From the NCBI RefSeq assembly GCF_963576615.1, contig NC_088711.1, forward strand, positions 9,604,869-9,668,868: a stretch of 64,000 nt of DNA, written 5' to 3'. Positions 1,244-59,595 of the stretch are shown here, piece after piece (within the stretch, counting starts at the first letter, position 1; each line of letters begins with the position of its first letter). The translations under genes were made by a program, and so were the position numbers. The notes beneath the pieces are model-generated. The model saw only the letters and a list, made by a program, of their open reading frames with translations, was not told the origin of the DNA and searched no databases. Origin of the DNA: Watersipora subatra. Lineage: Eukaryota > Bryozoa > Gymnolaemata > Cheilostomatida > Watersiporidae.

Positions 1244-4200
1244 AATTCTTCGTACTCTGAACTCTTGCATCTTGTTTAAACAACCAACTATGCTGGTTTG
1301 AAGAGCATTTCATGGGGCTTAAAGAAACCTGTCTCACATTAAGTGTGTCATAATGCAGTGTTATTGCTGGGGTTGTCTATCTGGAAATTTGGGGCATTCA
1401 CCACCATTTACCACTTTCAGGAACACGTCAGCTCATCGGTAAGCATTTATGGATAGTTAATGAGTTAAACAGATGTTTACTTGCAGAATGAGTCATTGCA
1501 GAGGCATGCTGGGTTCACTGGTCAGGCTCCCATGTCTTCAAACAAGTTCAATAGTCTCACAGCTCTGATTATATTGGGTACTCTCTGCATTGGCATTAAT
1601 TTCCCTAATGGTGAGTCTGTGTTGGTAATCCATTAACCTCTTCTCCATGATGGAAGCTTTTGATCAATCTTTCTGCAAGGAAATATATGCTGAAAGCAGG
1701 TACCTGATCCTTTTGGCCTACAGGAACTGATAACAGTGGGAGGGAACTCATGAATACTTTCGTTTTAATTAATATCTTGTCTACTCTGATGACAAGTTTG
1801 ATTAAATTTGTTAATTTTTCTCTTATTAAATTTATATATTATATATAATATTGGTTTATATATTTTTTATATATTTTGTATATTATAAAATATGTAATAT
1901 ATTGTCTAACATGTAAAATAGGTATATTATACATGTATATATGATATATATATAATATATTTTACATATTATATATAATATGGTAATTAATATATCATAT
2001 AAAAATATATAATATATTTTATATATTATATATTAAGTATATATAAAATATATTAGATGTATTGTATTTAAAATACATGTATAATATGAATATTATATAT
2101 AATATATAGGTATAATAAGAGAAAAATGCTCTATATATTATGTATATTATATATATCTAGGTATAATATATTATATCTCTTACATATTTAAAAACTATTT
2201 CCAACTACTATCTCAACCGTCTGTTACAGTTGAGTTCGTTATCGGCCTGAATGGATCTACTGTCGGCTGTCTCATCAGTTTCATATTTCCAGCTGTCATG
2301 TTTCTTAAAATTGTCGATTTTAAAGGAGAAGGAGCATTTAAAGCAAAGGTGAGCCTCGCTTAGTAGATATAGTAGATATAGTAGATATCATGTACCAATT
2401 ACTTTTCATACTATCATATGTAGATGTCATAAAATGCTAGAGAGCTTGGCTTCCAATTAACCTAGCGATGTTAAAGTCACAAAGGGGTAGGGGTGTTGAG
2501 GAAGGGCAGCTGACCTTAAATACCTGCATTTCTCCCCATTACTGAGAGGAAGGATCCTTTTTTCCTTTTGAGATTATTGTGAGCTGGAAACGATGAGTTG
2601 TACAGTTCTGTTACATTGCTATTAACCCAAACCATGAACTATGATGGAGGGGAAGGGGTGGCATGGGAAAAGGTGGCATGGAAAGAGGTGGCATGGGAAG
2701 TGGTGGCATGGGAAGGGATTGCATGGGAAGAGGTGGCATTGGAAGGGGTGGCATGGGAAGGGGTGGCATGGGAAGGGGTGGCATGGGAAGGGGTGGCATG
2801 GGAAGGGGTGGCATGGGAAGAGGTGGCATGGGAAGGGGTGGCATGGGAAGGGATGGCATGGGAAGGGGTGGCATGGGAAGGGGTGGCATGGGAAGGAGTG
2901 GCATGGGAAGGAGTGGCATGGGAAGGAGTGGCATGGGAAGGAGTGGCATGGGAAGGAGTGGCATGGGAAGGAGTGGCATGGGAAGGAGTGGCATGGGAGG
3001 GAGATAAAGCTACTTGGTTAAGCAGATTGGCTGCTCATGTTTGTTTTTTTTGCCTATTGCATGTTTGCATCAGTATCCAACATATATCGCTTGCAAACTA
3101 GTTGAAGTACGTGGACCTGTATCGATACATATTAGTACATGTCACTGCATGTCATTACATATCAGTTGGTATTAATTAGTGTATGTCAGTGTTCATCAGT
3201 ACATATCAGTGTCTATCGGTGTATGGCAGTGCATGGCAAATTTTCCATCAGTGTATGGCAATGTACACCAGTATTTGTTAGTGTCTATCATTACAGATCA
3301 GTGCATATCTGTACATATCAGTATATGGCAGTACGTATCTGTAGATATCAGTATGTATCACTGCTGTGTACCGTGCGCATCACTGCCTAGCAGTGTGTAT
3401 CAGTCTGTAAAGTGCACATCATTACATCTAGGTTGCATCATCATATCTCAATTTCCTTGGTTTGTGTAGGTAGTAGCGGTGCCAAGATATACACTAAACA
3501 GTTTATAGTCAAGACAAATTAACTTAAATTCTACCAAAAAGAACTGAACATGCTAAGGTTTATCACTGCCAATCATAATAGTCGTTACAGATGTGTAAAC
3601 CTACCTCTACTTTGGTGTCACTAATGCTGCAGCGACTTGTTATTTCCTTTACACTACAAATATTTCTGTGAGTTGTCTTCTCCCAGTCTCTAATAATAAG
3701 ATACTGTTAGAAAAATAAGAAGGCACTCCATCTAAATTGTATGTATTATTGACAGGTGGTCTTGTTGGTGGGGATATTAACCCTGTGTCTCAGTACCTAC
3801 TCTACTATACAAAATGCAGAGAGAGCAACAGAATTCCATCCCGCTCAGCCTGATCACACTGTTGGTCTGGCTACACTAATTCCAATCCGAGAACTTGGTG
3901 AGTTCACAACAGCAATTAGCAGCGGTTCCAATCACCTGGCTGCTTTCTTTATAATTTGTATTTAAAAACTTGCATTCAACCTCCACGATTAGGATATTAA
4001 AGGCTGTGTGTCTTCTTCTACAGCTTTTGAGATTTGCCCACATTAGCAACTTATGAATCAAAGAAAGTATCGCCTGTCCATTCTACATTTTTTAATTCCC
4101 AAGAAGTATATGTGCGGAAGATCATGAATCTGAATTCAAAATATTTGGTGTGCTTTTAGTTTTCAACATTATTGCATTAGCTAAAAACCCAGCTATTGAA

Positions 4201-7200
4201 TGTTGGAGGCTGTCTTTGTTTGAAGCGCCAACTACTACATCAAATCTAGATGTATCTCCTATGGCCAACCGGAATTGGAAGTTGTTAGTTGTATAGAAAT
4301 ACTATAACGTTGCATCTATTGCTGCACCTAAAACAAATTTTATTTACCCACTTGGATGGAAACCAAGTTGAAAAGAGAGCTGTCGTCGCTAGAGGGTTTG
4401 TAGCTCTGGAATAGCATATATAATAATTACCTAACTTTTATTTTACTCAGAAAGTTTTCTAGGTGGCTCGGTCATATGGTCATGGCTTTCTGTCCTGTTC
4501 ATCAAAATATGGTTTTTAATCATGGTATGCAGGCTCCACATTGTTGAGTGTGAACATATCAGCACAGTCGAATATCCTTTGCTAGGGATTCTGCTTGTTT
4601 TACCCTCATGATTATTTAACAAAATAAAGTTAATTTTAAAACCAATAAACAGTTTTGTAATTGGCAGAACAAAACCAAATTAATTCGTAGCATACTTAAT
4701 CATTGTGTACGATGATTGGTTGGTGTGAGCTATGAGTAAGTTGAATTTTACATAGTTTTATGCACCTCATGGTCAGACAATTCTATAGTTACACGCTAGT
4801 AAAGTGTTTGGCTATTGTAGTTTCATCTTATATTCGCTGTGTATACTAGTATATATAAAGCTATGCGGATATACTAGTTAGTTGGGCTACCTACCAGTGC
4901 TTAGATCGCTATTGCAGAGGTCGAACCAAAGAAGCCTGAGGAAAAGCATCTCGCTAATGATCTACAACCCGAACAGCAGGAAGCTCCCGGTATGTAGCTG
5001 TAATGTATATACCTCTACATGCTAAGTTAGTCCATTCTGAACGTTCCTTTGTATGTTAAGCTGTCTTTAAGCAGGATTATTCCTATAAGAATACACTGTA
5101 ATCGTAGTAACTCATGGTGTATGGCCCGGAAACCAATGATGACGTTTTAATAAATACTTTAAGTAGTTGCACCTAGATTTAAAACAAAAACAATACATGA
5201 AACTATGTAAAAACTTGATTTAAGTGATATTCGGTGAGATGAGTTTGTCTTGCTACTTTTACTTTAGGACACGCGAGCAGAAGTTTAGGTTTGGCAACAT
5301 GTAGGTTCGGAAATAGCTTGGTATAACTGTATATAACTGTATATAACTGTATATGTATATAACTGTTCATGTATATAACTGTATGTGTATATAACTGTAT
5401 AGTTTAGTCTTGCTTAGACCAGGTAAAGTATAAATTCTATTAGCTTATATTGGTTCCTTTATATTTCACTTTTTGGTTTTATTTGTAGTGTTCACCGGTC
5501 TCTTAATTTTTATATGAAACTCATGTTGTGGAAAACTTTGGAAACCGTCTATCTATTAAGTATAGTGTCAGATTTTTTATTAAATTTTACATCGTATGTT
5601 GAAGTGATCCTAAGGAGTGGTTTGACTGTACCCATGTCTTGTTTGGTGGTTGACTGTACTCATGTCTTGTTTGGTGGTTTACTGTACTCATGTCTTGTTT
5701 GGTGGTTTACTGTACTCATGTCTTGTTTGGTGGTTTATTGTACTCATGTCTCGTTTGGTGGTTTACTGTACTAACTTAAAAACTTTTCTTGATCAAAGCT
5801 ATTAGCTGGTCAATCTTACATGTGATTCATAGCAACCATGTGAAAAGAAACACAAGAGGAAATTTTAGAAAAGGTGACCACAACACTTTAGTTGTTTTCT
5901 GTTTAGTCATACTTAATGACCCATGAGCTCATCCTACGTACTGTTCGGATACTGCGATAGATATTATTCATCTATGCTGCAAACATTGCTATTTCAAGTT
6001 CATGTTCTTGAGACCGGAACTGTCAGCTCTCAATAAGTTTTATTGGACCACATCTTAATTTTCATCTTGTTTTACTTTAAACTTATTTGTCACGCTGCCA
6101 TGTAAGATCTAGTAAAGTTGCGCTAAATTACAGACACTTTGTGCAACAAAATAGTTGTTGAAGCTATAGTTATAGCTATTCAGAGCTGATATTGAAAAGC
6201 ATTGAGTTGTTGCGCATATTATTACAATATGGATATGAAATTACTACACATCAAACTAGTCTAAAACCTTCAGAACCCTCATTGGGATTTAGCTTCTCTT
6301 TGCTGCTTACTCTGCTCTCAACAGAAAAACTCAAGAAAATTTATCCACTAGTCATTGTCATTCATAACTTGCCTAGTTACATTAAGGATTCTGTGTGCAG
6401 AGGCTAATCAAAGACCGGTATATTTGGTGAAAAGACAGCGAGTGAAAAGCAAGTGTTATTGCAAAACCTATCCAAGGATTTTCACTATGTTGTAGAGGCG
6501 GCTATCAATAATATCACGTCAACATTGTATTATGAGTATTTGTCTGCTCTTGCCAACATGTAAGCCATTGTCCTCCGGCTCTCATTTGTTGACAAACCTT
6601 TTAACACTGAAAGATTACATAATTACTGCTCTTACATGAAGGTTTTGTTCAAATATTCAGATACAAGAAGGTAGGTTTATCGCAATGCTTTTAAAAATAC
6701 AATTGATTATTTCTAGTATTTTTCATTGATATAAGTATGTCACTATGAACTGTGGTTTACAAGGCCACATGTTTATCAATACCTTGTTCATTTGTGTTCA
6801 TCTTAATTTTCAGTTTGTTATGTACTGCTGTTGCAGAAGAAGCTGCAGAAGCAAAGGAGGCAGCGAAAGAGGCAGCAAAAGAAGAAGGAATGACACGCAA
6901 GGAACCACCGAACCCGCAACCTCCTAATAGTGATGACGATGAACAAGAAGAGGAGAGTAAAAAGGAGCCTCCAAACCGAGATGATAAGGTATTGTTGCAG
7001 AACACCATTTCTCAATGGATATTACATTTCTTAATCGAGCTCAGCTGGTAATCTTTGCTGTAAACTTCTTGTACGCTTGTCCAGGTTTGCTTTTTAAAAT
7101 GTTGAAACTTTATTTGTGATGAAAATGAATGTTTTACATTTGAACTTATGATGTCTCAGGGTTTTGTGGTAGCAACTTAGCCTCTGAGATGTGCTAATTT

Positions 7201-10200
7201 GTGTAGGAGGGTATGATTCCTCATTTGAATCATCTCTCATGGTTGACCATTATAGTGATATGCTAATTGTGAGCAAGTAGTTAGCCAGGTCACCTCGTCT
7301 CCATACTCTTACTATCGTTCATCATATTTCATTGTAACAAGTGTATTAGAGATTTATAACCAATTCATTTCAACTTCAATGTATTGCGTGATAAGCAATG
7401 CTGGACCAGGAAATATTAATGCCCTGTTGCCATGGTGATGATGGTAGCCATCAATGAGTCTACTACTTTGTGTCATTTCTTTTAAGTAGTTATATTTGCA
7501 CTGAAGATGTAATTGAATATTGTTATATTTAGTGAGTTATACAAGAAAGCGTCGAAGGAAATGTTTTTGTACCAGATACTGTTATCGAGAGCATTAGATG
7601 TTGTAAGTCATCGCCCTTTGTCCTTAGCCGGAAAACTTTGTCCATAAACTGTCAAGGGTCTATGAAACTAATTGTGATATATTGTGCAGCGGCTATAAGA
7701 ATAAATGAGATAAATATATCTATAATAGCAGTATCTATCTCTCATTACTTGCCACTTTTATATGTCTTCTCATCTTCCTTCTCCTCTCCGCTCTTCTGTT
7801 TGATCTTTTCATCTAGCAAAAATGTTTCGTCAGTCAATCTTACTGCAGACCATACTGCATTGTTACTTTTCTATTGGATGTCTGCACTGAAACTTGAAAA
7901 GTTATTGTTTTAGGCTGCATTTTATTAGCTGAAATTCCATAGTTAAAGCGTCAGTCGGTTGATCTTGGAACTATCGTAATGCACTTAGCAAGCGGAATCA
8001 GCAATTTCAAACAGGATTCGTCTTTAAATTTGTCTTTTTATAACAAAAGTTTTTTGTACTACATTTATTTCCTGTTCCATCACAATTGTCTCCGTATTAA
8101 CATATAACCGGGAGATGTTCCTTTTGTTTTGTTTACATCCTATAGCTTGTTCAGGATCAGCCTACTCACATATTCTGGGTTTGTTTGAATGATGTTTATT
8201 GTCAGATAACACGCAAGTTGGCCTGTTGATTCTATTGCCAGAATGATAGTGCAGAGAAAATGGTTGTTGAAAAAAGCAAACATTCGAAGAAAGGAGAAGG
8301 ACACCATAAAAAGACTCACAAAGGTGATGTTGATCACACTGCGCAACCAAAGGATGGTGTTGTTAAGATCGAAGACGAACCATTGAATAATGCTGATAAC
8401 AAAACAGATGAGAAATCCAAGAGAGATGCAGACAATGAGGTAAACATCTGCTATTTATTCTTTAGCATAGGATAAATTGACCGTATGAATATTCCAATAT
8501 ATCTTCATGCCTGTGACATGTATTCTGGCTTCAACCAAATTGATTGGATTGTTTTAGGAGACAAATAAATCTATAAAAAAGCTAATCAAAAGATTGGATA
8601 CGCAAGCAGAAATGAATAAAGATCTCCTGCAACAAAACCAAGCACTCCTTGAAGGCTTCAAGGAAATTAAGAAGGAGAAAGTATGCATGCCTCTATTTTC
8701 ATATCTTGTTTATCTCTGGTTGCAAGAGTGCTTTTATATATATAATTATATTATTTATGTTTTGTTATTTCATCTACCAGGCAACGGGGAAAACAAGCAT
8801 AAGATTATCAGTGTGCTAATGTTTTGATGATATTACAGTCAGTGCCTTCACATAGCATTTATTGGTTCAGAGTTTTTAGATGTTGTCTGCAGTTGTGTTG
8901 ACAGATAAAGCGAATAGACATAGAAATACTTTTTGCCGTGAAGTGTCAAGAGTATTCTGAGTCTAACTTTTTCTGTTTGTACATCAGATCATAACATCTA
9001 ATATGCAGGCTTAATTGGGGAGCTATTAGTTAAGGAATTGCCCATCAACGATAAACTGGTGAAAAACAGAGGGACTAAGCATAATGTGATCTAATTTGGG
9101 ATAAATAACGAATTGTCAGGATGCTGTTCAGAATTTGTGCTAGTTTAAGATGGCTGTTTTTTTTTTGTAACACATGTGTTGACAAGCAATGATGTTCATC
9201 CCATAAATAGGTTTGAAAAAATATTGTGCAAGGTTAGTTTGCCTGAAAAAGCTAGTACAAACTAGTTTCCATTCGTTAAAATATTGATTTTGAAGAATTG
9301 TCCGCTCATGTTTTTGACAAAATTTTGTAAATCGTTCTATTTTGTTGCCATCTCACAACTTTAAAAGGATCAATGTTAGTAGCAGAATTGCAATGAGCCT
9401 AGCTTACCTGACAAACATTCTGGAATGATAAATATCGTTTTGCAATGGTTCACAATGGTGTACCATTCTGCTGTTTCGGGGAGGGCAGCGCCTACCGAAT
9501 GGTTATCTTCTTTGATTCATTTACTTAACACATAATGGTTTGCTATGCTGAAGGATAATGTGATAAGGAAAATGGTGTTTACAAACTTTTTAATTGAACC
9601 CATCAAAGTTAACTACAACAAAATGACTAGAGTTCACTACAATCAAAACAAATGAAAGTGAAACTACCTAAGTAAAACACACTGCCCAAAGATGTTACAA
9701 GTTTTTATGTTTGAGAGCAGCTCCATCAAGTTGGATTTTACTGATTATCATTGACCAACTTTTGAACTGTTTTTTAAATTTGTAAGGAGTTATCACTTTA
9801 GTCAACCTCACTGAGACAAATCCATTCCATTGACCAAACTTACAAGATATTGCTTCAGGCCGATACAAGGAGCCCCCCATAATGCATACATTAAACTAGT
9901 AATGACCATATTTTGTTTTTTAATTATTGTACAGGAATCTTTGGAGGGAGAAGTTGGCATCAATAAAGTGCAGATACCAGTATTACCTGGTGGCCAAGCA
10001 CCATTAGTGGCACAGCAAGGACAACAACCAGCACAGGCACCAGTTCATTTACCTGTGCAACAGCAAACACAATTACCAGTACAGCAACAAGCTCAGCTAC
10101 CAGCACAACAACAAGCTCAGTTACCTGTACAACAACAAGGACAGTTACCAGCACAACAACAAGCCCAGTTACCGGCACAACAACAAGTGCAGTTACCAGC

Positions 10201-11660
10201 ACAACAACAAGTGCAGTTACCAGCACAACAACAAGCGCAGTTACCAATACAACAACAAGCGCAGTTACCAGTACAACAACAAGGACAATTACCAGCACAA
10301 CAACAAGCCCAGTTACCGGCACAACAACAAGCTCAGTTACCAGCACAACAACAAGTGCAGTTACCAGCTCAACAGCAAGCGCAGTTACCAGCACAACAAC
10401 AAGCGCAGTTACCGGTACAACAACAAGCGCAGTTACCAGTACAACAACAAGCGCAGTTACCAGTACAGCAACAAGGACAGTTACCGGTACAACAACAAGC
10501 GCAGTTACCGGTACAACAACAAGCGCAGTTACCAGTACAACAACAAGGACAGTTACCAGCACAACAACAAGCCCAGTTACCGGCACAACAACAAGCTCAG
10601 TTACCAGCACAACAACAAGGGCAGTTACCAGCTCAACAGCAAGCGCAGTTACTAGCACAACAACAAGCGCAGTTACCGGTACAACAACAAGCGCAGTTAC
10701 CAGTACAACAACAAGCGCAGTTACCAGTACAACAACAAGGACAGTTACCGGTACAACAAAAAGCGCAGTTACCGGTACAACAACAAGCGCAGTTACCAGT
10801 ACAACAACAAGCGCAGTTACCAGTACAACAACAAGGACAGTTACCGGTACAACAACAAGCGCAGTTACCGGCACAACAACAAGCGCAGTTACCAGTACAA
10901 CAACAAGGACAGCTACCAGTACAACAACAAGCACAGTTACCGGCACAACAACAAGCACAGTTACCAGTGCAACAAGTACAGTTACCAGTACAACAACAAG
11001 CACAGTTAGCAGTACAACAACAAGCGCAGCAGCCTGTTCAAACACAGCACAAGCATCAAACTTTGCCCGAACCGCACGATAAAAGAAAGCAAAAGATGGA
11101 GGAAAAGGTGGTAAATTATGACCAGTTCATTGAAAATTATGAAGTCAAACTTGCTGAGACTGAAGACAAACAACGAGAAGTTGTTGAAGGTGCCTTTATA
11201 ATTACTGTTTCATGCATTTATTCTCTTGGTTGGGTACATGAAATGAGCTGCACGTAATGGAAATCTTGTTGGAAGAATGCAGATATTCTTTGCTATTTGC
11301 TTACTCGTTTACTTTGATGGTTTTAACTGAAAGATTTTTTATCATGGCTGAACCCAAAATAAGCTAGTTTTTCTTTTAGGTAACCAGGAAATAAAAAAGT
11401 CTTTGAAGGAAATAATTGAAAAAGGAGAAAGTGAAAACAATAAAAAAAAGAGAGACATTCCTGATGATATCGCCAATGCTGACAACGCTGACAAGGTTGA
11501 TGGTCATGTAATTGAATCGGATACTCCGAAGAAATCGGATGAAAAAACGCTAGTTGAGAAAAATAATATAGCACAGCACCAGAAGGACAGCATTTTAGAC
11601 AAGGATTTACCTCAGACTACTAAAAAAACTGTTTCTGGCAACGCCAAAGAGGAGGTTTAA
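1244..11660 (+). CDS. SLC38A10: SLC38A10-like amino-acid transporter, 3' part (10 exons)
   Basis: Exons read at 1244-1295 (least sure), 1487-1610, 2230-2348, 3756-3897, 4918-4989, 6837-6988, 8242-8439, 8558-8680, 9935-11189 and 11380-11660 (TAA). All boundaries are AG/GT and all phases agree; about 838 residues result. The first four exons give the last membrane helices, with TALIILGTLCIGINFPN, then VIGLNGSTVGCLISFIFPA, then VVLLVGILTLCLSTYSTI, which align by eye with the last helices of SLC38A10, a sodium-coupled neutral amino-acid transporter of the AAAP family. The remainder is the long hydrophilic tail typical of SLC38A10: an acidic/KEAA exon, a Lys-rich exon, a coiled-coil-like exon (8558-8680) that recalls the QQ-rich coiled coil of vertebrate SLC38A10, a giant Gln/Pro repeat exon, and a charged C-terminus. 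The N-terminal helices are not in the window. A possible AATAAA lies at 11689. Identity rests on membrane-segment similarity and tail architecture. Confidence 0.85.
1795..2190. repeat. AT-rich tract with TATATTA-like repeats
   Basis: About 400 bp almost entirely of A and T, with many short overlapping palindromes (TATATATA, AATATATT) inside the intron between the 1487-1610 and 2230-2348 exons. It is low-complexity sequence, not a gene. Confidence 0.9.
2650..3002. repeat. 15-bp minisatellite, about 23 copies
   Basis: Tandem units GGCATGGGAAGGGGT, G-rich on the plus strand, in an SLC38A10 intron. They create long frames in at least four of the six readings; none is taken as a gene. There is a gradual variant change from AAGGGGT to AAGGAGT along the array. 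Confidence 0.97.
3120..3430. repeat. Degenerate short tandem repeat (CAGT/CATCAGT-based)
   Basis: Irregular repeats of roughly 11-12 bp around the motif TACATATCAGT/TATGGCAGT in the same SLC38A10 intron as the 15-bp array. Two overlapping open frames here are by-products. Confidence 0.75.
5321..5402. repeat. Short tandem repeat TATAACTGTA
   Basis: Several copies of a 10- to 16-bp unit containing TATATAACTGTA in the SLC38A10 intron after exon 4918-4989. Confidence 0.85.
5625..5772. repeat. 28-bp minisatellite, about 5 copies
   Basis: Units begin ACTGTACTCATGTCTTGTTT and are spaced 28 bp apart. The array lies in the SLC38A10 intron between exons 4918-4989 and 6837-6988. The rest of that intron (to 6836) holds nothing I recognise. 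Confidence 0.95.
6989..8241. other. SLC38A10 intron, nothing recognised
   Basis: Phase 0 intron between the acidic exon and the Lys-rich exon of SLC38A10. No exon-like or repeat structure is apparent. Confidence 0.6.
8681..9934. other. SLC38A10 intron, nothing recognised
   Basis: Phase 0 intron just before the giant repeat exon. The plus-strand frame opening at 9830 is the repeat exon read back into intron; the acceptor TTATTGTACAG ends at 9934. Confidence 0.6.
10048..11039 (+). repeat. Coding 24-bp minisatellite (octapeptide repeat)
   Basis: About 40 tandem 24-bp units inside the 9935-11189 exon encode the octapeptide QLPxQQQA, with x = Val, Ala or occasionally Ile, and Ala sometimes replaced by Gly, Val or Thr. 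The unit is a multiple of three, so copy changes keep the frame; one unit near 10965 is short (LPVQQVQ) but also in frame. Low divergence between copies points to recent homogenisation. The opposite strand is open for 361 codons only because the unit happens to lack stops in that frame. Confidence 0.95.
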
Positions 11661-27077: not shown

Positions 27078-28185
27078 GACTGCAGACAAAGCTGTCCAGT
27101 ATTTCATACAGTAGTGCCTGATGCTTGATCTACACGGGTAGTTGGCCACTTCTTGGCGAGAGGGCAATCGTATCACTCTGAGCTGGCAATGTTGTTTACA
27201 GCTTCCAAGCATCTCTGAATATTAATGAAATTGTGCACTTATCAAACCAAGTCGTCAAAATATTTCTAATTAATTCATCTGAATTGGTATTGTACTAGCG
27301 TGATTTATGCGTGTCTAGAATGAATGAAGCAGCTATCATAATACTGTAACTCTCTCTGATGGAATGAATTATTAATGTTTGAAGTTGCGAACAGCTCTGA
27401 TTGAGCATAAAACTGCTGCCACCAGCGTGTTAGTCTAACATGCTATGTGGTATATTACTTTATTGCTAAAATATTTATACAAGTATTATTTAAATTAATA
27501 GAATATTGTCAAAAATTTGAAGTGAATTTGGGTGAAGTTGTTCCTACTTGACGAAGAAACAATTTTGATTCCATGTACTAGCCACTAGTACAGGAAGCAG
27601 TCGCTAGTGTGAGTACGCTATGATCTTACTTGTTTTTGTTATAAGTTGTGGTTGGCACATTGCCAATACAAGCAACTGTGTTGCTAATATGGGCAACAGT
27701 GTTGTCTCTCATCAGTAGTGAGTCACAAAGCTATTACTCAGTGAAATGCGTTTTCAACCACACACCAGCCACAGCCATTTTTAAGCATATAAACTGCTAG
27801 ATTCCTCGTGTAATTTTAGCCATTGATTGTATTCTGCTCTTGGTGTTTAGGCTAATATCTCAGTTGATATAATATTATTTACATAAAGTAATTGAATTAT
27901 TTCAAAAACTGAAATTCAAGAAAGCCTACATGTAATTCTCAGAGAATGGTAATTGATCGTGTGTTGTTACTCTAACTAGAAAAGTTGATATCACTTCGTA
28001 CTGGTATACATTGTATGGCTTAACTTCTAGTAAGTGCAGTAATGCAACTGTCGCCTCGCTTGCAACATAAAAGATCTGATTTTAATAGGAATTATGTTGA
28101 ATCGCACTTTCATAAAGCAATAAAAATGCTCTACCAATCGTCATACTGAAACTTTGGCTGTTATCTCGGCAAGATCAATTTTTTA
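27078..28185. other. Hox4 upstream region, no gene recognised
   Basis: AT-rich intergenic sequence. The minus-strand 61-codon frame at 27027-27212 overlaps the X-box region and has no motif. Confidence 0.6.
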
Positions 28186-28189
28186 TTAT

Positions 28190-28515
28190 TACTGTGTCCT
28201 AAATACTTACTGTGTCCTAAATACTTACTGTGTTTTAGATACTTACTGTGCCCTAAATACTTACTGTGTTTTAGATACTTACTGTGCCCTAAATACTTAC
28301 TGTGTCCTAGATACTTACTGTGTCCTAGATACTTACTGTGTCCTAGATACTTACTGTGTCCTAGATACTTATTGTGTACTAAATACTCTCTTTCCTAAAT
28401 ACTTACTTTGTACTGGATGCTTACTGTGACTGAGATACTTATTTTGTCCGAGGTACTTACTGTGTCCTAAATTCTGCGTCCTAGATACCTACTGAGTCCT
28501 AAATACTTACTGCGT
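28190..28515. repeat. 18-bp minisatellite, about 17 copies
   Basis: Units CTAAATACTTACTGTGTC with variants CTAGATAC and TTAGATAC; the end of the array is irregular. Confidence 0.95.
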
Positions 28516-29456
28516 AGAAATACCTAAAATGAAAACCAGGTTAATTAAGAATGTTTGGTTTGTGTGCTGATCACTGATTCACTGATCAAGTCAAAAAAGA
28601 TGAAAGATTGAAGGTTATAAATTTCGACACTTTATTAAACTTATAGTTTCCACCAATTACTCAGCCTATCGTGGAACAGTATTTTTACCAATTAACTAAA
28701 ACATTAAAATCGTTAATGAATGATTTTTATTGACTTCATCTCTGTTAATGGCAATTACAAAAGAAATAGCAAAGATTGATTAACAGGAAATGAGCGTACC
28801 TAATGTTTCTTTCCTAGATATCGTTCTATGGTCTGCAAAAGTTTTATCATAAATCTTTTTATTGCATAGACGATTTGATATAAAATGTGCAGTTTGCCTT
28901 GCACATCAATTACATCGCTGATCTCTCATCGGTTTTGTCTATTTTCAAATCTATATTACTAATTCATAGAATGTACGTGTGACAATTTTATTATGCTGTA
29001 TATCTTTGTAAACCAGCTGTGGGCACATCATGTCACTGATCAATTGAACTGGTTTTACTTGTTTTAGCAATTTGAAACCAGTTTTAACAATTTATTTAGG
29101 AGAAGGCTCAAGTTCATCAGCAGTCTATAAAGTGCTTATTTAATCAAATTTAAACTCAACCTCCCTGGCCAAGCAATCACTATTAGCACCACCAGGCTGT
29201 GTCACCTCTGAACTCTCACTTCCCTTTTGGCTTTATTGCTATTACAGGCATCGTACATGAAACACACTTAGCAATACTCTAACCAAATCGGGTGACTGAC
29301 ATAAAATCCACATTTTTAACTACCTAAACCTAAGTTTTTGAGTTTTAAATACACAATTTTTAAATTGTTTATAACTTTAATGACTCAAAAGAAAAATTAC
29401 AGAATTTTAATTGTAGATTAATTTTAATTCGTAATTACTCATTATGAACCATGACA
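28516..29456. other. Intergenic, nothing recognised
   Basis: Between two minisatellites upstream of Hox4. No motif or long frame. Confidence 0.6.
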
Positions 29457-29636
29457 ACCAGTCACGCATGGCCTTCTATTATACAACCAATCACGCATGG
29501 CCTTCTATTATACAACCAGTCACGCATGGCCTTCTATTATACAACCAATCACGCATGGCCTTCTATTATACAACCAATCACGCATGGCCTTCTATTATAC
29601 AACCAGTCACGCATGGCCTTCTATTATACAAGCGGT
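29457..29636. repeat. 29-bp minisatellite, 6 copies
   Basis: TCACGCATGG recurs at 29462, 29491, 29520, 29549, 29578 and 29607, with almost no divergence. Because 29 is not a multiple of three, the repeat is open in several overlapping frames in turn; none is a gene. Confidence 0.97.
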
Positions 29637-30800
29637 CTAAAATTACATGAATAATTATGTGCCTTTCTGTAGCTTTATAAACTAGGCATATAAACATTAA
29701 GAAGCTGTGAACTGAAAACGATGTGAATGATTCTTTACGAAATATATAGTTAAAAAAATGAAACACTTGAGTAGGGAAATCAGTTGGATGATCATTTTAA
29801 ACCTATTTGTCCTGATTCGATTCAAAAGGGAAATTTTACGATCAATATTAGAAGTTTGGCAACCCCAATGTGAAACAGCCAATTGGAAAAAATCAGTTTG
29901 TTGGGTAAAGAGTGTACACGACACCACACACTTTTGTCATACATTTAAATACAATGTAATTGTAGATGAAATAAAAATAAAAATAACATAGATTTTGCAA
30001 ATTAATACCATGATGGCCAAACTAGTCTTAATGTATTGTTAATAACTGTGGATGTCAATAAAAATTTGAGATTTACTTGACCAACTTAACCACAAGAAGA
30101 CAACTCCTAAAAAGTGATGTTCAGTTCCTATTATATAAGTAATTGTGCTCTTATTTTTTATGCCGTGTAATGTGACATATATGTTTACTTGAAAAAAATG
30201 GCAAACTTGGTTAATAATTTTATTTCTAAATTAAATAAAAATTTAACATATATTATCTCAAAAATGTAAACTTTTGTGTTCTTGGTGGTTAGCACTAAAA
30301 TCATGACTCATACAAAGTGGATAAAACATAAAAACAAATCAAAAAAATTTAATTAGCATAAATCCATAAACAACTTGCACAAGAGCTATTTTATATACTT
30401 CTATATACTGGGTAGTTTATATACATGAAGCTAGTAGAGTGAAACATACGTTATGGCAATCTATTTGGACAGAAAACTCTAAATTAGCACACTCATGTTA
30501 TTTTAAATTTTTACAATGACAATTATGTACATAGTTTGTGATACTCACTTAGTTTTACAATTCTAACCGTTTTACCATACTTTTTATATGAAAAATGTCA
30601 AGTTGTTGATCGACACCGTGTATGTATATGGATCTGACCTGAAATAAGCAAATAAAAATGTATGGGGTGTGTATCTTTACAGATTTTTAGATACAAACAT
30701 TATAATTGGATTGCTATGAATTTCCATTATCATTTGAAAAAATAATTTTAAAGCTGTTTATTTTACATTTTTGAAATCAGGACAAATCGAAAATTAACTT
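29637..30800. other. Intergenic, nothing recognised
   Basis: AT-rich. Small frames on both strands lack any domain. Confidence 0.6.
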
Positions 30801-31270: not shown

Positions 31271-31868
31271 AAGTACTGAAAAGTAATCGTTTCTTTTTTG
31301 CCAATTTTGAAGATAACTCTGACATTTTGGACATTTATAATGAGTACTTTGGTATTTCAACTGATGTCCAAAGCAGTGAAAGTAAAGGAAATAACGATGA
31401 TATTTTTTAACGATTCTTATAAGATTATTACAATATTTAATTATAAGAATAATTATTTGATTTTATGAGATTATTATAAGATGTAGTTATAAGAATAATC
31501 ATTCGAATTTACAAGACCGAAATATATAGTGACCGATGGTGTGCAATATGTTACTGTTATTATTTTTCTAAAGATTTTGTTGATGATACTACGGCTGTGT
31601 CCAATATCGCGGTACTGCCAAGCCGTTTTTAATATCTGCAAAATTAAGTACGTAATAGGCATAAATTTTCTTATAGATATACAGCTATTTCTATGACAAC
31701 CAGCTAAAATCTGTTTAGATTTTTAAATTCAGCATAATTTTTTGGATATAAATAAAGAAATCTAGATTAATATCACAATTTTTTGATATTGGTTGCTATG
31801 AAGTAAATTATACTCGACAAGGATAGACAACTCCCAACTCAAGATCGAGCTCACGCAAACTTGATGAG
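31271..31868. other. Intergenic, nothing recognised
   Basis: AT-rich spacer between repeat copy A and the 24-bp minisatellite. Contains repeated TTATAAGA/TAAGAATAAT motifs near 31420-31500. Confidence 0.6.
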
Positions 31869-31869
31869 T

Positions 31870-32252
31870 TGATGAACAGACTCGTGGGTGAGCCAATAAA
31901 CAGACTCGTGGGTGAGCCGATAAACAGACTCGAGAGTGAGCTGATAAACAGACTCGATGGTGAGCGGATAAACAGACTCGATAGTGAGCCGATAAACAGA
32001 CTCGATGGTGAGCCAATAAACAGACTCGTGGGTGAGCCGATAAACAGACTCGAGAGTGAGCTGATAAACAGACTCGATGGTGAGCGGATAAACAGACTCG
32101 ATAGTGAGCCGATAAACAGACTCGATGGTGAGCCGATAAACAGACTCGTGGGTGAGCCGATAAACAGACTCGATAGTGAGCCGATAAACAGACTCGTGGG
32201 TGAGCCTATAAACAGACTCAAGAGTGAGCCGATAAGCAGACTCGATGGTATC
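31870..32252. repeat. 24-bp minisatellite with higher-order structure
   Basis: About 16 units of GATAAACAGACTCGATGGTG plus AGCC. The variants occur in a fixed order of five units (GAGAGTGAGCT, GATGGTGAGCG, GATAGTGAGCC, GATGGTGAGCC, GTGGGTGAGCC) that repeats as a 120-bp block. Long open frames on both strands are by-products. Confidence 0.95.
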
Positions 32253-32827
32253 TTTTCTCAGCTATTACACCCTAGCAAGCCAAGCGCAATAATTCTTGAT
32301 GTTCGGTCAATAGCACTTATAGTGAAAGCAGCTATGATACGCTGGCTAATATCACAATGCTAAAGTCAGAAACAGTGACAAGAGTTTTATAACCTATTTT
32401 CTTTTGAAAATCAAGCAGAGCTTATTGTAAAGAACGCAGTATCTTTATTGGTGTTATATCTCTCAGTACCAAGCAGTAACACACCAGCAATGATAAAACT
32501 GACAGGTTATATAGCAATCCCAGGGAAAAGTTTACAATTGATTGGCTGCACAGTAATTAGGTCAACCAATTCCACAATAACATATTTCGAATACAAAAAC
32601 GATAACATTTGTCATTAACTAATCACGCAATACGAGCATTAATAATTTTTTTAGTGTTTGTATAGTAACATGAAAATCTTAGAACAATATGGTAATAAAT
32701 GGTTAACATAAAAAAAATTGCTAGTATAACACATACATATACACTACATTGGACAAGTGTTAAGCGTGCGCCTTATAAATGGCTATTCAAATTTGTCTGA
32801 ATTGCGACGAACGTAATATAGATCCAT
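32253..32827. other. Intergenic, upstream of the zinc-finger unit
   Basis: No gene recognised. The last part probably belongs to the promoter of the unit starting near 32933. Confidence 0.55.
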
Positions 32828-32936
32828 TGAGTCAGCAATTTGAAGCTGCCGGATTATAGGCTTAGAAAAGACGTCAACTCTCTTACGCATGCTGACTGTC
32901 TATAAATACGGGTACACACTGATTCACAGTTCATTC
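32828..32936 (+). promoter_or_regulatory. Core promoter: AP-1 and CRE-like sites, TATA box, initiator
   Basis: TATAAATA at 32901-32908 is followed by TCATTC at 32931-32936, an initiator match whose A (32933) is 32 nt downstream of the TATA start, the normal spacing. Upstream are TGAGTCA (32828-32834, AP-1-like) and GACGTCA (32870-32876, CRE-like). Together they predict a 5' UTR of only 16 nt before the ATG at 32949. Confidence 0.6.
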
Positions 32937-32948
32937 ACTTTTACAAGC

Positions 32949-33206
32949 ATGAAGCACTCGTGTACTTTTTGCGATTTTTCTTGCAACAAGGAGCGCGACC
33001 TACAGAGGCACGCTCGTGTACACAGACACCGCTGCTCCTCCTGTGATGAGGTGTTCACCACTCAGCCTCTCCTGCAAGCGCACGTCTCTGCTGAGCACCA
33101 AAGAACACAGTCTACCCAGACTGAACCCCAGAGACCGAGGACGCGTTCATCCCGTCGCCAACACCATCACCGAGGGCAATGCTACACAAGGCCACAGCAG
33201 GACTGA
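32949..33206 (+). CDS. Small two-finger C2H2 zinc-finger protein, possibly a decayed gene
   Basis: 85 codons from ATG 32949 to TGA 33204. Two C2H2 fingers: C5, C8, H21, H25 (spacing C-2-C-12-H-3-H) and C29, C32, H45, H50 (C-2-C-12-H-4-H), directly abutting, then a basic Arg/Gln/His-rich tail. C2H2 fingers usually bind nucleic acid. The same frame has a second stop, TAG at 33216, and then stays open for 44 codons, ending in an acidic segment VDFIGDDSDPLGLLDSP and TGA at 33351, which looks like a real C-terminus. So the locus is either a pseudogene of a ~134-codon gene or a truncated gene. It is markedly more GC-rich than the rest of the window, has no intron, starts just after a good TATA/initiator pair and is followed by a histone-type stem-loop. 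Family not recognised. Confidence 0.55.
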   Translation: MKHSCTFCDFSCNKERDLQRHARVHRHRCSSCDEVFTTQPLLQAHVSAEHQRTQSTQTEPQRPRTRSSRRQHHHRGQCYTRPQQD

Positions 33207-33379
33207 CGGCCGTACTAGAGGCCAGCCCGTGATGCTTGCCCTACTCCACGGCATGAAGTGGAGTCCAAGATCGTTCGCCCATCGGTAGACTTCATCGGGG
33301 ACGATAGTGACCCTCTCGGGCTACTGGACTCACCAGTCAAAATCGATTTCTGAGTGCCAATAGTCCCACCAACCACCTC

Positions 33380-33399
33380 GGCCCTTCTCAGGGCCACCA
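33380..33399 (+). promoter_or_regulatory. Histone-type mRNA 3' stem-loop
   Basis: GGCCCT-TCTC-AGGGCC followed by ACCA matches the metazoan replication-dependent histone 3' element: 6-bp stem with GG at its base, 4-nt loop with T at positions 1 and 3, and ACC(A) flank. It lies 27 nt after the last in-frame stop of the zinc-finger unit, the usual distance. I see no purine-rich downstream element (GAAAGA type) and no histone gene nearby. Confidence 0.6.
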
Positions 33400-33718
33400 T
33401 TTCCATTTTAAGGGTTTGTTCTACGTCGACAATGGTGGAAACTCAGTGTCGTACTTATCATCCACTTTTTTATTACAGCTATGACGTTTTGAAATGTAAA
33501 CAAAATTGTGCATTGGTTTTCGTTTCTCAAACTTAACACCAGTCTTCTCAGAACTATGTTTTTGCACTAATGGTAAACATGCATTCAGTTTATTGACCAT
33601 AAAATCTGCTGTAATTAAGCTGGAATGAAACTTTTTTGCAAAATAACTGAGAGTTTTCTCCTTCTGCTAGTGTAGATAACTTTAAATCTCACACACACGA
33701 CTTAACCATGGTTTCTGT
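33400..33718. other. Intergenic, nothing recognised
   Basis: Return to AT-rich sequence after the zinc-finger unit. Confidence 0.6.
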
Positions 33719-35623: not shown

Positions 35624-38600
35624 TTAACCACTTGTATATCCACAGTTGGTGCACTGTCGCTCTCTCATCGCCAGACAGCAGAGGATTCCAATCGGGAAAA
35701 AGAATATGGCCAAAAATATTGCGCAGCAGCCATAGTGGTCAGTGAAGACACCCATCTGCAAATGTTAAGTAATAAAAGTTGAATTATTTGAAGGAGTGTT
35801 TAAGAAACACAGAGTTCTCATAACCTACCAGGCATAACTAGAATGATAACATGTAACTATGCCATCTGGCAATTAACTCATCTGGCGAGAAATACAGTTA
35901 AAACTCCATGCACAAGAATAATCAAATCCAATATTTGTGCGACGCGTCAAAATCATCATTTGTTAAAGCAAATATTCTTATATGCGTACATTGTTCGATT
36001 CATTCAAACATCAAAAACAATTGTATAATACTGCAAGTGACTATATACAACATTAAAAACAATTGTATAATACTGCAAGTGACTATATACAACATTAAAA
36101 ACAATTGTATAATACTGCAAGTGACTATATACAACATTAAAACAAAAACATGTGAAAACTCAATTAATAAAGCAATACTCAGTAAATAGAGGATTTTACT
36201 GTGGCTTTACTACAGAGACACGAGAATGGAAAAGGCTTTTCAAAGCTCAGGTCCAGTAGTAGGGTGAGTGACAGAAATACTCAATATAACTTACACTGTA
36301 GAAAGTTTAACTTTATTTATATATTTTACAAATACTTTTACAACTTATTTTTAAATTTTACCAGTTTTTTATGTTTACTTATAAAACTTCAATGTTTGGA
36401 TACACTTTAAATGTACATCGTAGTATGTTGAAAAGGGATCTGTATATTGAAGACAAATGTTTGTTCAAATGCTTGCATGTCGACAAACTCGTATGTATAT
36501 GCTTTTATATATAGACGCAATCTCAAATTGAGATTGAACTGTACAAGAAATTCAACACAGTTGATATACCGAAATAATGAAGTATAGCCTGAGATGATAT
36601 AAACCTAATTTATTCATATCTAGGTCAATGCTCTCAACTCAAAACAACCTCTCAAGATCTTTTAGTTTGCATCACATAAAATCGAGTTCACGCAGACTTA
36701 CCCGACAGTTTGGGCATCCCCCAGTCTGAACAACAGTCACTGCTGGAGCGGCTGTTGTAACTTGAACTGCGGGCTGTGCGTATGGCTGTCCTTGTGGGTA
36801 AGCACCCCCCTGTGGGTAAGCACCCGCGGGTGGGTAAGCACCCGGAGGTGGGTAGGCCCCAGCGGGCGGAGGCCCTTGAGGTGGATAGCCTGTTAGTCAA
36901 CAAAAATGTGATAATTGCTAGGCAACAGTTATCCGACAGTTTGACAAGTATGACAGGAACGCTGAACTAATTCAACCAATGGTAACTATGATGCATATAC
37001 GTAAAGCACATTCTCAGATATTGCGAAATGCTGCAAATCATTAGATACGCATCATTCGCCCCCTTACTTACACGGATGTCACTGGATCGGGCTACGGAAA
37101 AATTAGATATCCCCTATAGTCCTGCCATGGCTCATCGATTATTCAAAGCACAACACCTGAAGGATAGGATTAACTAATTTGGCTATGGTAGCCAACATCT
37201 CTGGGATTTTTGCACTTTAATAATATCAATTTACATTAACATTAAAGTTAAGTTTGAAGAAAACTTGATGGCCCTAAGCCTGTAACTTACAGACATATAA
37301 CAACTTGATGGCCCTAAGCCTGTAACTTACACACATATAGCAACTTGATGGCCGTAAGCCTGTAACTTACACGCATATAACAACTTGATGGCCCTAAGCT
37401 TGTAACTTACAGACATATAACAACTTGATGGCCGTAAGCCTGTAACTTACACACATATAACAACTTGATGGCCGTAAGCCTGTAACTTACACACATATAA
37501 CAACTTGATGGTCGTAAGCCTGTAACTTACACACATATAACAACTTGATGGCCGTAAGCCTGTAACTTACACACATATAACAACTTGATGGCCGTAAGCC
37601 TGTAACTTACACACATATAACAACTTGATGGCCGTAAGCCTGTAACTTACACACATATAACAACTTGATGGCCGTAAGCCTGTAACTTACACACATATAA
37701 CAACTTGATGGCCGTAAGCCTGTAACTTACACACATATAATGAAGGTATTCAAGAGAAAACTAGAGAAAACATTAGCTGTATTAACTGCTGCGTGTTTTA
37801 CAGCAGTTAATACAGCTGCAGTGTGGCCAATGTGTCTGTCATTCACTGCTTTTCCATTCATCGCGTTTACCCTTTGATGAATGGATTATAAAAGAATCAT
37901 TCAAATCATAAAATTCAAAGATTTCAATTACAATCAGCCATATGTTTGAATTTAAACATACTTTCTCTAATCACTTAGGTGAACAATTGTATCAGCTGAA
38001 TACAATCAACTTAACACTATTACAAGTTAAAACGTATTCAACTGAATACTAATTATTTCATACGACCAATCCTACAGCCAAGTTGAAAATTCCCTGACGC
38101 ATTGATCATCTTTGGGACTGTGTAGAAGCAATCTGTGATACATCTGCGAAACAACCACTTACCCAGAGAATATTGTTAATGAATGGAAAAGTAGTGAATG
38201 ACAGACAAATTGGCCATTCAAGGCAAGCGTTCAGAAAAGCATATCTGACCAAAACATTCCATGACCTAATAATCAAGAACACCTGAGCTATGAACAGCAG
38301 GTTGGGGTTCAAGTCCCAAAAAGGCCACCAGTGGTGACAGGAATGGCATCCAACCTTAAATCACGATCTGCAATTGGGCATGTCTCTGGTCATCGAGGTT
38401 TCCTTGCCACTGAGCTCACACATGTCCATCCAAGATCATAAAAGAAAACGTTTCCGCAATAATGCTCTTGAAAACACGCACAACCTCTGCTCGCATCAAG
38501 TAAAGCATACGTCGCACTTGATCTGTGAAGAATTGTCCACACGTCATCGCATTATCACCAATTGAACACGCGGTCACATTTAACCAAAGAGAATATCATG

Positions 38601-53620: not shown

Positions 53621-55066
53621 CAAACTCCTGTTGGTAGGTCAAGCGAACTAGCCCACCAGGCAACAACTTCTCCTTTAAAATGTTAGTAAATACAAGCAGT
53701 GTGCTGAACATAAACTACCTCAAGATACAGTGTGACGAGGCAAACTTAACATTAAGGAATGACATTTGGATAGAGCGTGTTGACTGCAGAAGGGCAAGTT
53801 GATTGCTTATCTCTATTGCCTGGCAAACAGTATGAAAGGCTCATAGAGATAGCGCAGCTGTGGCATTTACCAGGGCGCAGCCTATTTTTCTCACCACACA
53901 CCAACTACGAATGGCTACCGGACATTTTGGCTGCTTAGCTAGCCCTATGCATGACTCGACTAGATAACGCAACGCTCCGCTCCGTAAACTTTAGTCCTCC
54001 AGTCACGTACGCACTAAATACCTATTCTGTGATTTATAGACCATTCGCTTGCTCTGCAATAGGAAGAAATCCATGATTATAAATTAAAAACTAAACCAAA
54101 AAATCGTGAAAATTAAACACAAAAGGGATGAAGCAATTCAGTTGTACGTGACTAACAGATTTTCCGGCATGCATGCTCATAGAAAATAAACAATTACTAT
54201 AGAGAAAGCATTAATAATCGACTAAGTATCAGGAAGTAGGACAGAACTAGCAGAAGGATATACAATCCGTTGTAAACAGTGCAGTCAGCGCATGATGCAA
54301 TCAAGGGTTTGTCTATAATCAATATAAGGCTCTCCCATTAACATCGCCGACGCACATATATAGAGATAAAGATATTTCCTGCACAGTTTTAGATAAGGTG
54401 TCTTAGAGACAGGTTGGTACATTCACGTAACCAGGAGCTGAAAAAAATTACAAATATATTTGGAGGTAAGGCGGATACAAGGTTTGTAGATAGAAATAAT
54501 TAGCAATGAACTGATGAGGAAGATGCAATTAGGTCTTGAGTAGGTGTAGTATGTGTGTAGTTAGGATGTTGTATTGTATACATACATCAAATCCAGGCAC
54601 TAACCAGGCCTAGTCACATTAACTGTGCATTTGTGATGTTATTCGCTCAGTATAATTTCAATTGATGATGGCTGTATTTACATATAAATATTTGTGAATT
54701 ATGTTTTCTGTTAAAGAGAGCATTTAACAAAAAAGTTAAATAATTTTGTAAAAAGTTGTAATAATCTGTAATCATTCTAGTAGCGAACATGCAGAATGGT
54801 GCGAGGCCAAATAACGCTTTGTAGAAGAAGTTGTCTTATTTGAATCACCATGACTCAAGTTTTTGGCTCATATGTAGATATTTCAAGCGAGCCGTAGTTT
54901 TGGCAATTTTTTTAATGAACTTATAAAGCAGGAAGACAATTGCTCCTCGCTGCGATGTGATCAATAACAGGACACGATAATTTAGGGAATTTTCCTATCG
55001 TATCTCTTGGTCACCTTTTATCTAACCTGGACGAATTGTTGTAGAACTCTTTCGAGACCAACAAGA
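53621..55066. other. Upstream region of NDUFA4-like 1
   Basis: No TATA box or other element recognised. TTGTTGTAG at about 55036-55044 could be an acceptor for a 5' UTR intron, as in the second copy. Confidence 0.5.
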
Positions 55067-55354
55067 ATGGCGAGTTTCTTTCGAGCGCAATGGAAAGTTT
55101 TTCAGAAGCAACCAGATGCTCTTATTCTTGTGACATTAGTAAGCTGTGCTGCGAGTGGTGGCGTCCTTTTTGGCATACGAACAGCCATGAAGAACCCTGA
55201 TGTCAGCGTGGCCAGAAATCAGAATCCAGAGCCATGGAACAAAATGAAACAAGACCAGCGATATAAATTGATGAAAATCAATCAAGACCTTGCAGGTCAC
55301 AAGTTTCCCGCCGAAAGACCAGTTATGGACAATGAAAACTACAAAGGCATATAA
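55067..55354 (+). CDS. NDUFA4: NDUFA4-family protein, copy 1
   Basis: 95 residues, coding region without introns. NDUFA4 (B12D family) is a small single-span inner mitochondrial membrane protein associated with cytochrome c oxidase. Here residues ~18-42 are the membrane segment after QKQPDALI; then KNPDV at 42-46, NPEPWN at 53-58, and YKLMKINQDL at 66-75, equivalent to NPDV..NPEPWN..YKFYSVN in vertebrate NDUFA4; the C-terminus is ERPVMDNENYKGI, longer than in vertebrates (about 81 residues). ATG chosen because it starts the conserved region; an in-frame ATG 20 codons upstream is less likely. A paralogue follows 3.9 kb downstream on the same strand with the same C-terminal YKGI. Confidence 0.92.
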   Translation: MASFFRAQWKVFQKQPDALILVTLVSCAASGGVLFGIRTAMKNPDVSVARNQNPEPWNKMKQDQRYKLMKINQDLAGHKFPAERPVMDNENYKGI

Positions 55355-59190: not shown

Positions 59191-59304
59191 TGCTATTTTT
59201 TAATGTCTGCCCTTGAATTAAAATGACTTACTATTATTGTTAAAACCTTTTCATTATTTTTGGTAATAGTGAGTAATTTAACCAATTTAGTTTTGCTGTT
59301 GCAG

Positions 59305-59595
59305 ATGTCCAAATTCATCAGAGAGCAAATACAAGCATTGTCTAAAAGGCAGCCAGATGTTGTCATTATTGGCACCGCTGTATGTGTTGTTTTAACTGGC
59401 GCCGTCTTCTCTCTTTCGCGGGCTGCCTTGAAGAGTCCTGATGTGACTTGGAACAGAGATAAAAATCCGGAGCCTTGGAACGAGGTCAAGCAGCATGAGC
59501 GTTATAAGCTGCTGAAAATAAACCAAGATCTCAAAGGTCGTACATTTCCAGAAGAAAGGCCCAGTATGGATACTGATAGGTACAAAGGAATATAA
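59305..59595 (+). CDS. NDUFA4: NDUFA4-family protein, copy 2
   Basis: 96 residues. Membrane segment about 19-42 after KRQPDVVI, then KSPDVTWNRDKNPEPWN at 43-59 and RYKLLKINQDLKGRTFPEER, ending MDTDRYKGI. Its VTWNRDKNPEPWN is closer to the vertebrate NDUFA4 pattern (DVCWDRxNPEPWN) than copy 1, so copy 2 may be the conserved one. The ATG follows directly after TTTTGCTGTTGCAG, a good splice acceptor, so a non-coding first exon lies upstream. About half the residues are shared with copy 1, mostly in the C-terminal half: a fairly old tandem duplication. ATTAAA at 59705-59710 is a possible polyadenylation signal. Confidence 0.92.
   Translation: MSKFIREQIQALSKRQPDVVIIGTAVCVVLTGAVFSLSRAALKSPDVTWNRDKNPEPWNEVKQHERYKLLKINQDLKGRTFPEERPSMDTDRYKGI

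Follow-up and report, generated by a model that had tools for sequence, protein, structure and literature searches.

Histone-type 3' end signals on antisense zinc-finger genes in Ty3/gypsy LTRs and on Tc1/mariner transposase genes of Watersipora subatra

Can a zinc-finger (ZF) gene of the bryozoan Watersipora subatra end like a histone mRNA, and if so, what kind of genetic element does it belong to? PMC6303110 describes the histone stem-loop as a signal confined to the replication-dependent histone genes. A first-pass annotation of 64,000 nucleotides of W. subatra DNA (called the window here) placed such a stem-loop directly behind a small, decayed ZF reading frame, together with a promoter, and predicted that intact relatives exist elsewhere in the genome.

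The individual motifs of this unit were found in the window sequence as claimed. An AP-1-like TGAGTCA at 32828-32834 and a CRE-like GACGTCA at 32870-32876 (+) are followed by the TATA box TATAAATA of the ZF gene at 32901-32908 (+); the transcription start site is placed by inference. In intact copies of the window's family, designated F1, the CRE-like motif reads GACGTCATC, and in a second family, F2, it reads TACGTCAC at a similar place. A TATA-like box about 40-50 nt upstream of the ATG recurs in F1, F2 and a third family, F3. With both strands of the window counted, TGAGTCA occurs 13 times, TATAAATA 11 times and GACGTCA once, so that the promoter motifs carry less weight than the stem-loop. 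The ZF frame (32949-33206, +) starts with the ATG at 32949 and encodes 85 aa, with two C2H2 fingers at about residues 5-25 and 29-50 (placed by Pfam matches to the relative L010) and a basic tail, before it is truncated by a TGA at 33204-33206. Remains of the C-terminus continue on the same strand at 33207-33353; they contain a TAG at 33216-33218 and the family end DSDPLGLLDSPVKIDF, and close with the stop TGA at 33351-33353. The two premature stops mark this copy as decayed, as had been proposed. The histone-type stem-loop of 16 nt, GGCCCTTCTCAGGGCC, occupies 33380-33395 (+), and the ACCA flank 3' of the stem, read from the sequence, occupies 33396-33399 (+). The gap between the last in-frame stop and the stem-loop, given as 27 nt, measures 26 nt. 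On both strands of the window, only two sequences combine an unbroken 6-bp stem and a UYUC loop; of these, only the one behind the ZF frame is followed by ACCA.

The Rfam model Histone3 (RF00032) matches positions 33375-33419 with 29.4 bits (E 4.9e-6; 1,201 nt searched against 4,227 families). The gathering score of this model is 34, and a scan of the whole window at that score gave no Rfam match. The first-pass annotation had named a score below threshold as a reason to abandon the idea, and taken literally 29.4 is such a score; however, eight host histone loci give 18 matches to Histone3 (17 distinct stem-loops, one being counted twice), with a range of 27.6-36.7, and 9 of these fall under 34 as well. 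The gathering score is therefore strict for the W. subatra genome, and the score of the window copy is comparable to those of the animal's ordinary histone genes. The 20 distinct host histone ends read GGCCCTTTTCAGGGCC, then ACCA, then a core AAGAGTTGTTC; host histone stem-loops lie 19-37 nt past the stop. A similar downstream element, AAGGGTTTGTTC, is found in the window at 33410-33421 (+). Downstream elements of 24 sequences were scored with a matrix made from the 20 host histone ends, with 20,000 stretches drawn at random from the window as background; the window copy reached p 3e-4. Its scored stretch started five bases too early, which displaces the position, but the element recovered is the same.

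The unit lies inside a solo LTR of 1,679 nt (31799-33477), whose boundaries are common to other copies and whose element sense is the - strand. The LTR ends in TG...CA and reads TGAAGTAA...TTACA in the orientation of the ZF gene. It is flanked by the target-site duplication GCTA at 31795-31798 and 33478-33481; duplications of 4-5 bp were also recognised by eye at other copies (L002 GTAG, L003 AGTC, L004 ACTT, L006 CTATG, L009 GGAG). A 24-nt minisatellite within the LTR (31865-32293, approximate limits; array 31793-32317) is shared by other LTR copies as well. Further minisatellite arrays occur in the window at 37142-37820 (40 nt), 28153-28511 (18 nt) and 29425-29656 (29 nt), and a 480-aa open frame at 9815-11257 (+) consists mostly of AQLPVQQQ-type repeats. 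Also on the + strand, B12D domains (NADH-ubiquinone reductase MLRQ subunit) are encoded by exons or frames at 54986-55354 (2.5e-15) and 59227-59595 (2.3e-16), which are probably duplicated NDUFA4-like genes.

When the 572-nt unit was searched against the 783.7-Mb genome (320 first-look candidates), at least 40 matches were scored, a lower bound that includes the unit itself; the other 39 are 93-95% identical to it. Some of them form direct pairs 6.4-6.6 kb apart, and L009, L010 and L011 are full-length copies with two LTRs. L010, on which the pol domain order was read (the window holds the LTR alone), encodes a zinc-knuckle gag and a pol that comprises protease, RT, RNase H and integrase, all on the strand opposite the ZF gene. 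Over 1,661 aligned columns its two LTRs agree to 99.94%, and the element is therefore young. Its pol frame (3215-7345) extends into the 3' LTR, so that it overlaps with both the antisense tail of the ZF gene and the stem-loop; remains of this pol tail are present in the window at 33215-33406 (-), opposite the ZF C-terminus and the stem-loop and overlapping both. TGGTGGCAGCAGTGGGA, which we take to be a tRNA-Leu-like primer-binding site, adjoins the sense end of the LTR. The TG...CA ends, the 4-5-bp duplications, the zinc-knuckle gag and the order protease-RT-RNase H-integrase are all as in Ty3/gypsy elements. By these features, the LTR in the window is a decayed solo copy from a Ty3/gypsy retrotransposon, with the ZF unit inside it and antisense to gag-pol. 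We also considered that the ZF unit and stem-loop might be a sense R region that ends the genomic RNA, which was rejected, as gag-pol is on the other strand.

The relatives foreseen by the first-pass annotation do exist: four ZF families carry the stem-loop, and these bear out that it belongs to the ZF unit. Intact F1 frames, of 134 aa, are those of L002, L004-L008 and L010. F2 (142 aa, intact in L076-L080) was reached through a search for the ZF protein with 150 scored matches, and F3 (143 aa) through paired stem-loop sites. A further search listed at least 16 stop-free F3 places with identities of 90% or higher and also led to F4 (135 aa; L116 and L117), which was chosen by its protein and whose stem-loop was seen only afterwards. 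Pairwise protein identity among the four families is 31-45%. All of them have two C2H2 fingers followed by a QT motif and a basic tail, DPLGL near the C-terminus is common to F1, F2 and F4, and the stem-loop lies 19-26 nt past the ZF stop in each. The Pfam finger matches of F1-F3 are weak and mostly under the cut-off (F3 zf-C2H2_4: 27.3 versus 27), and a profile made from seven F1-F3 proteins matches the CTCF fingers in solved structures with 3.1e-11. A frame that starts in the LTR and runs antisense to gag-pol was found in F1, F2 and F3; pol pieces on the strand opposite the ZF frame are 78% (F3) and 72% (F2) identical to the pol of L010. The element context of F4 is known from a same-strand pair separated by 6.6 kb. 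A further locus, L096, may represent a fifth, decayed ZF family. As the sequences of these copies show, the LTR of F1 and its kin carries a complete antisense gene, with a TATA-type promoter, a 134-143-aa protein and a histone-type 3' end; the protein itself consists of two C2H2 fingers, a basic tail and a short C-terminal motif.

A conserved protein with its own promoter might also be expected if the ZF unit were a family of host genes or pseudogenes that have histone-type ends and simply happen to overlap repeats. The unit, however, is situated wholly within an LTR with target duplications, and its pairs flank gag-pol and are spread over many chromosomes, so we give a host gene hardly any credence.

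The finger codons are under purifying selection. Calculated from intact copies only, which biases the values downwards, their pN/pS is 0.33 in F1 (7 copies, 21 pairs; L007 and L008 form the LTR pair of a single element), 0.10 in F2 (5 copies, 10 pairs), 0.15 in F3 (7 copies, 21 pairs) and 0.08 in F4 (2 copies, five changes). The corresponding values for the tail are 0.63, 0.74, 0.88 and 0.10 (nine changes in F4), so that constraint is weak in F1-F3. Synonymous finger sites are saturated between F1, F2 and F3, with the stem unchanged. In copies chosen by similarity of the unit or the protein, the stem-loop could be aligned in 15 of 15 F1 copies and 10 of 10 F2 copies; the exact 16 nt, allowing C or T at one loop base, are present in 13 and 8 of these, respectively, and the inexact copies differ by one or two changes. 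The same exact 16 nt occur in 3 of 5 F3 copies (one change in each of the other two) and in both F4 copies. Within F2, variation is 1.3% in the stem-loop versus 4.0% in the 5' flank; within F1 it is 4.2% versus 5.6%, about seven of the ten differences being at one loop base. Similarity to the host histone downstream core was found in most families. The p values were 0.027 for the F1 copies L002, L007 and L010, 0.012 for L087, 0.035 for L102, 1.5e-4 for three F2 copies, 3e-4 for F3 L088 and L091, and 0.029 for F3 L094; the downstream element is thus weak in most F1 copies and in F3 L094.

The signal is also found without the protein. Six F3-type loci were chosen by their stem-loop, and two of them (L091, L094) have an intact frame. 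The other four LTRs (L088, L089, L090, L092) are devoid of most of the ZF frame, some 350-430 nt being missing, and yet their stem-loop and downstream region are 89-94% like L091. F3-type stem-loop sites are paired about 5.9 kb apart, which indicates that elements without the ZF frame have moved. Either the ZF protein is therefore not needed from each copy, or it acts in trans, and these four loci possibly rely on the ZF protein of other elements. In any case, the stem-loop can be retained where the protein is lost, which weighs slightly against the explanation favoured below.

How often the signal occurs in the genome was determined with the exact consensus GGYYCTTYTCARRRCCACC, which gave 449 sites, versus 0 for the reversed control. 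With the strict downstream sequence GAGTTGTTC added, there were 77 sites versus 0 for the control; by coordinates, 7 of the 77 are at histone clusters, and the genome has 25 histone-fold matches. The first 100 of the 449 sites comprise 16 at ZF matches, 21 at places of Rfam matches and 63 remaining ones, a single histone gene (C1:55961792, L062) included. Fifteen of the remaining sites were fetched: six were F3-type, one F2-like (L095), one a decayed ZF locus (L096) and five Tc1, and two (L093, L098) received no class assignment. A further fetched locus, L102, is a ZF match. Conversely, an exact stem-loop is found within 800 nt of 16 of the 23 ZF matches on C1 and the first 59.58 Mb of C2; for the other 7 of these 23, no exact stem-loop was found within that distance. 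Downstream elements at some of these and other loci gave p 5e-5 (L093), 1.5e-4 (L026) and 0.012 (L030), and were not significant at L096 (p 0.22) and L098 (p 0.078). L093, together with L106 and L109, belongs to a dispersed repeat without a recognised long frame, in which the stem-loop is accompanied by a perfect host-type downstream element. In viral contigs, a lone exact stem-loop with ACCA was seen at L111:499-518 (IMGVR_UViG_3300027759_000077), and a search of these contigs for relatives of the ZF protein found none.

These counts bear on the simplest alternative, a GC-rich hairpin that stands beside a decayed ZF frame by chance and fits the histone consensus by accident. It would be in keeping with a single short motif that stays under the Rfam gathering score (as do the representatives of all four families: F1 L007 33.1, F2 29.6, F3 29.2 and F4 33.8 bits), and with the sense pol frame of F1 reading through the stem-loop. 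But chance does not account for 449 exact sites against 0 for the control, for its preservation, 19-26 nt past the stop, across four ZF families that have diverged from one another, or for a downstream element of the host type. The genome-wide counts and the four families led us to reject an accidental hairpin, which we regard as extremely improbable.

The Rfam matches elsewhere in the genome led to a second group of carriers. None of the 30 examined loci coincides with a histone-fold match, and we rejected the interpretation that they are histone genes. A Tc1 transposase frame is listed for 15 of the 30 loci; judged from their 3' sequences, 9 loci belong to type A, 19 to type B and 2 to neither. 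Domains and inverted repeats were tested on the type A locus L014, and types B, C and D were recognised by eye from their frames. Like Tc1/mariner elements, L014 encodes a transposase with HTH_Tnp_Tc3_2 (8.4e-22) and DDE_3 (1.7e-15) domains, between inverted repeats at 6-35 and 1799-1828 that begin with TACA; unlike Tc1/mariner elements, it carries a histone stem-loop with downstream element past the transposase stop. Its Histone3 match, at 1501-1546, is clear of the terminal repeats. At Tc1/mariner loci the stem-loop lies 20-53 nt past the stop (type A 24 nt, measured on L014; B 53, C 20, D 22), and the Rfam scores are 35.3 (C), 40.3 (D), 40.6 (B) and 42.9 bits (A). Downstream-element p values are 0.008 for two type A sequences, 3e-4 for two of type B, 0.026 for two of type C, where the element is weak, and 5e-5 for type D.

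Since it occurs in mobile elements, the stem-loop might instead serve in DNA or in another RNA role, for instance as a transposase or integrase site, in packaging or in translation, and resemble the histone element by convergence; the LTRs that keep the stem-loop without the ZF frame would suit such a role. In L014, however, the stem-loop is about 250 nt inward of the terminal repeat and at one end only. Wherever a gene is recognisable, the stem-loop is past its stop codon and in gene orientation, and stem, loop, ACCA and downstream core all match the histone element. We therefore consider another role very unlikely.

Somewhat less remote, though still unlikely, is a genuine but relic signal, which ancestral elements would have acquired from a histone gene in a single copying event and carried without use ever since, while transcripts are polyadenylated elsewhere or not made. 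Many copies are dead, and the ZF-less F3 LTRs retain the signal, both of which a relic would explain. A relic is harder to reconcile with the persistence of stem-loop and downstream core across families whose synonymous finger sites are saturated, with the presence of the signal in two unrelated transposon groups, and with young intact copies such as L010. Moreover, neither AATAAA nor ATTAAA was found in a stretch that begins 45 nt ahead of the stem-loop start and reaches at most 110 nt beyond it, in 19 of 20 loci (all but L118, which the search pattern did not cover; the sequence of several loci ends sooner than 110 nt).

The explanation that accounts best for the observations as a whole is that of a solo LTR with an antisense ZF gene, 3' processing by SLBP and U7, and capture of this pathway by two groups of transposons, and we hold it to be very probable. 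On this explanation, host SLBP would bind the loop and the U7 particle would pair with the downstream element, whereupon the antisense transcript would be cut just past the ACCA to give a compact mRNA without poly(A). The ZF mRNA would be made mainly while the histone machinery is active, that is, in S phase, eggs and early embryos, and its protein may bind DNA, most simply its own LTR, and so regulate the element. The signal of about 45 nt would fit between the ZF stop and the edge of the LTR and spare pol from antisense read-through. As the signal is about 80 nt from the LTR edge, the antisense gene would end within the LTR; therefore it would have no need to be transcribed into pol (3' LTR) or host DNA (5' LTR), and it would still be complete in a solo LTR.

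As to the host factors, SLBP gave four exon matches at two host places. The exons of its RNA-binding domain are at G000:C4:7381366-7383869 and C1:5038680-5043683 (L042-L045), perhaps representing two SLBP genes. For U7, Rfam RF00066 gave one match over the cut-off in the genome, without visible complement to the downstream element. A sequence pattern gave 0 matches in the genome, and a wider pattern 21 versus 16 for the control. There is thus no convincing U7 gene, which is the main gap on the computational side.

The 3' ends described here resemble those of replication-dependent histone mRNAs (RF00032 plus downstream element) in their 6-bp stem, 4-nt loop and ACCA, and those of host histone genes in the short distance from stop to stem-loop and the similar downstream core. 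They differ from them in being located on transposon genes. Antisense genes as such are known from HBZ of HTLV-1, a bZIP protein that reads past the LTR and is made from polyadenylated RNA, and from antisense frames in plant Grande elements. The ZF gene is similar to these in that a regulatory-looking protein is read antisense from an LTR. Unlike HBZ, it encodes C2H2 fingers (Pfam found these only and no bZIP domain in the ZF proteins), lies wholly in the LTR and has a histone-type 3' end, and the combination of an antisense ZF gene in the LTR, its own promoter and such an end also sets the elements apart from Ty3/gypsy. In the titles and abstract openings of open-access literature, no report that joins histone stem-loops with transposons was found. 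What would be new is the use of the histone 3' end pathway by transposons; the elements themselves belong to known superfamilies.

Tc1/mariner elements carry the same 3' signal as the Ty3/gypsy LTRs, and therefore at least two unrelated transposon groups would have captured the host pathway. The broader proposition, which we find rather more plausible than its opposite, is that mobile DNA took over the histone 3' end pathway in the lineage of W. subatra: several Tc1/mariner types and a Ty3/gypsy clade with an antisense LTR regulator would make replication-linked mRNAs without poly(A), use the signal in greater numbers than the histone genes do, and escape poly(A)-selected sequencing. In W. subatra the signal sits on selfish elements from no fewer than two unrelated groups, and its copies far outnumber the histone genes. 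Should transcripts indeed end at this signal, production of the element proteins would be tied to S phase or to the histone programme of the egg, poly(A) signals would be dispensable inside the LTR, and such elements would be missed by poly(A)-selected RNA-seq. They would also supply natural non-histone substrates of SLBP and U7.
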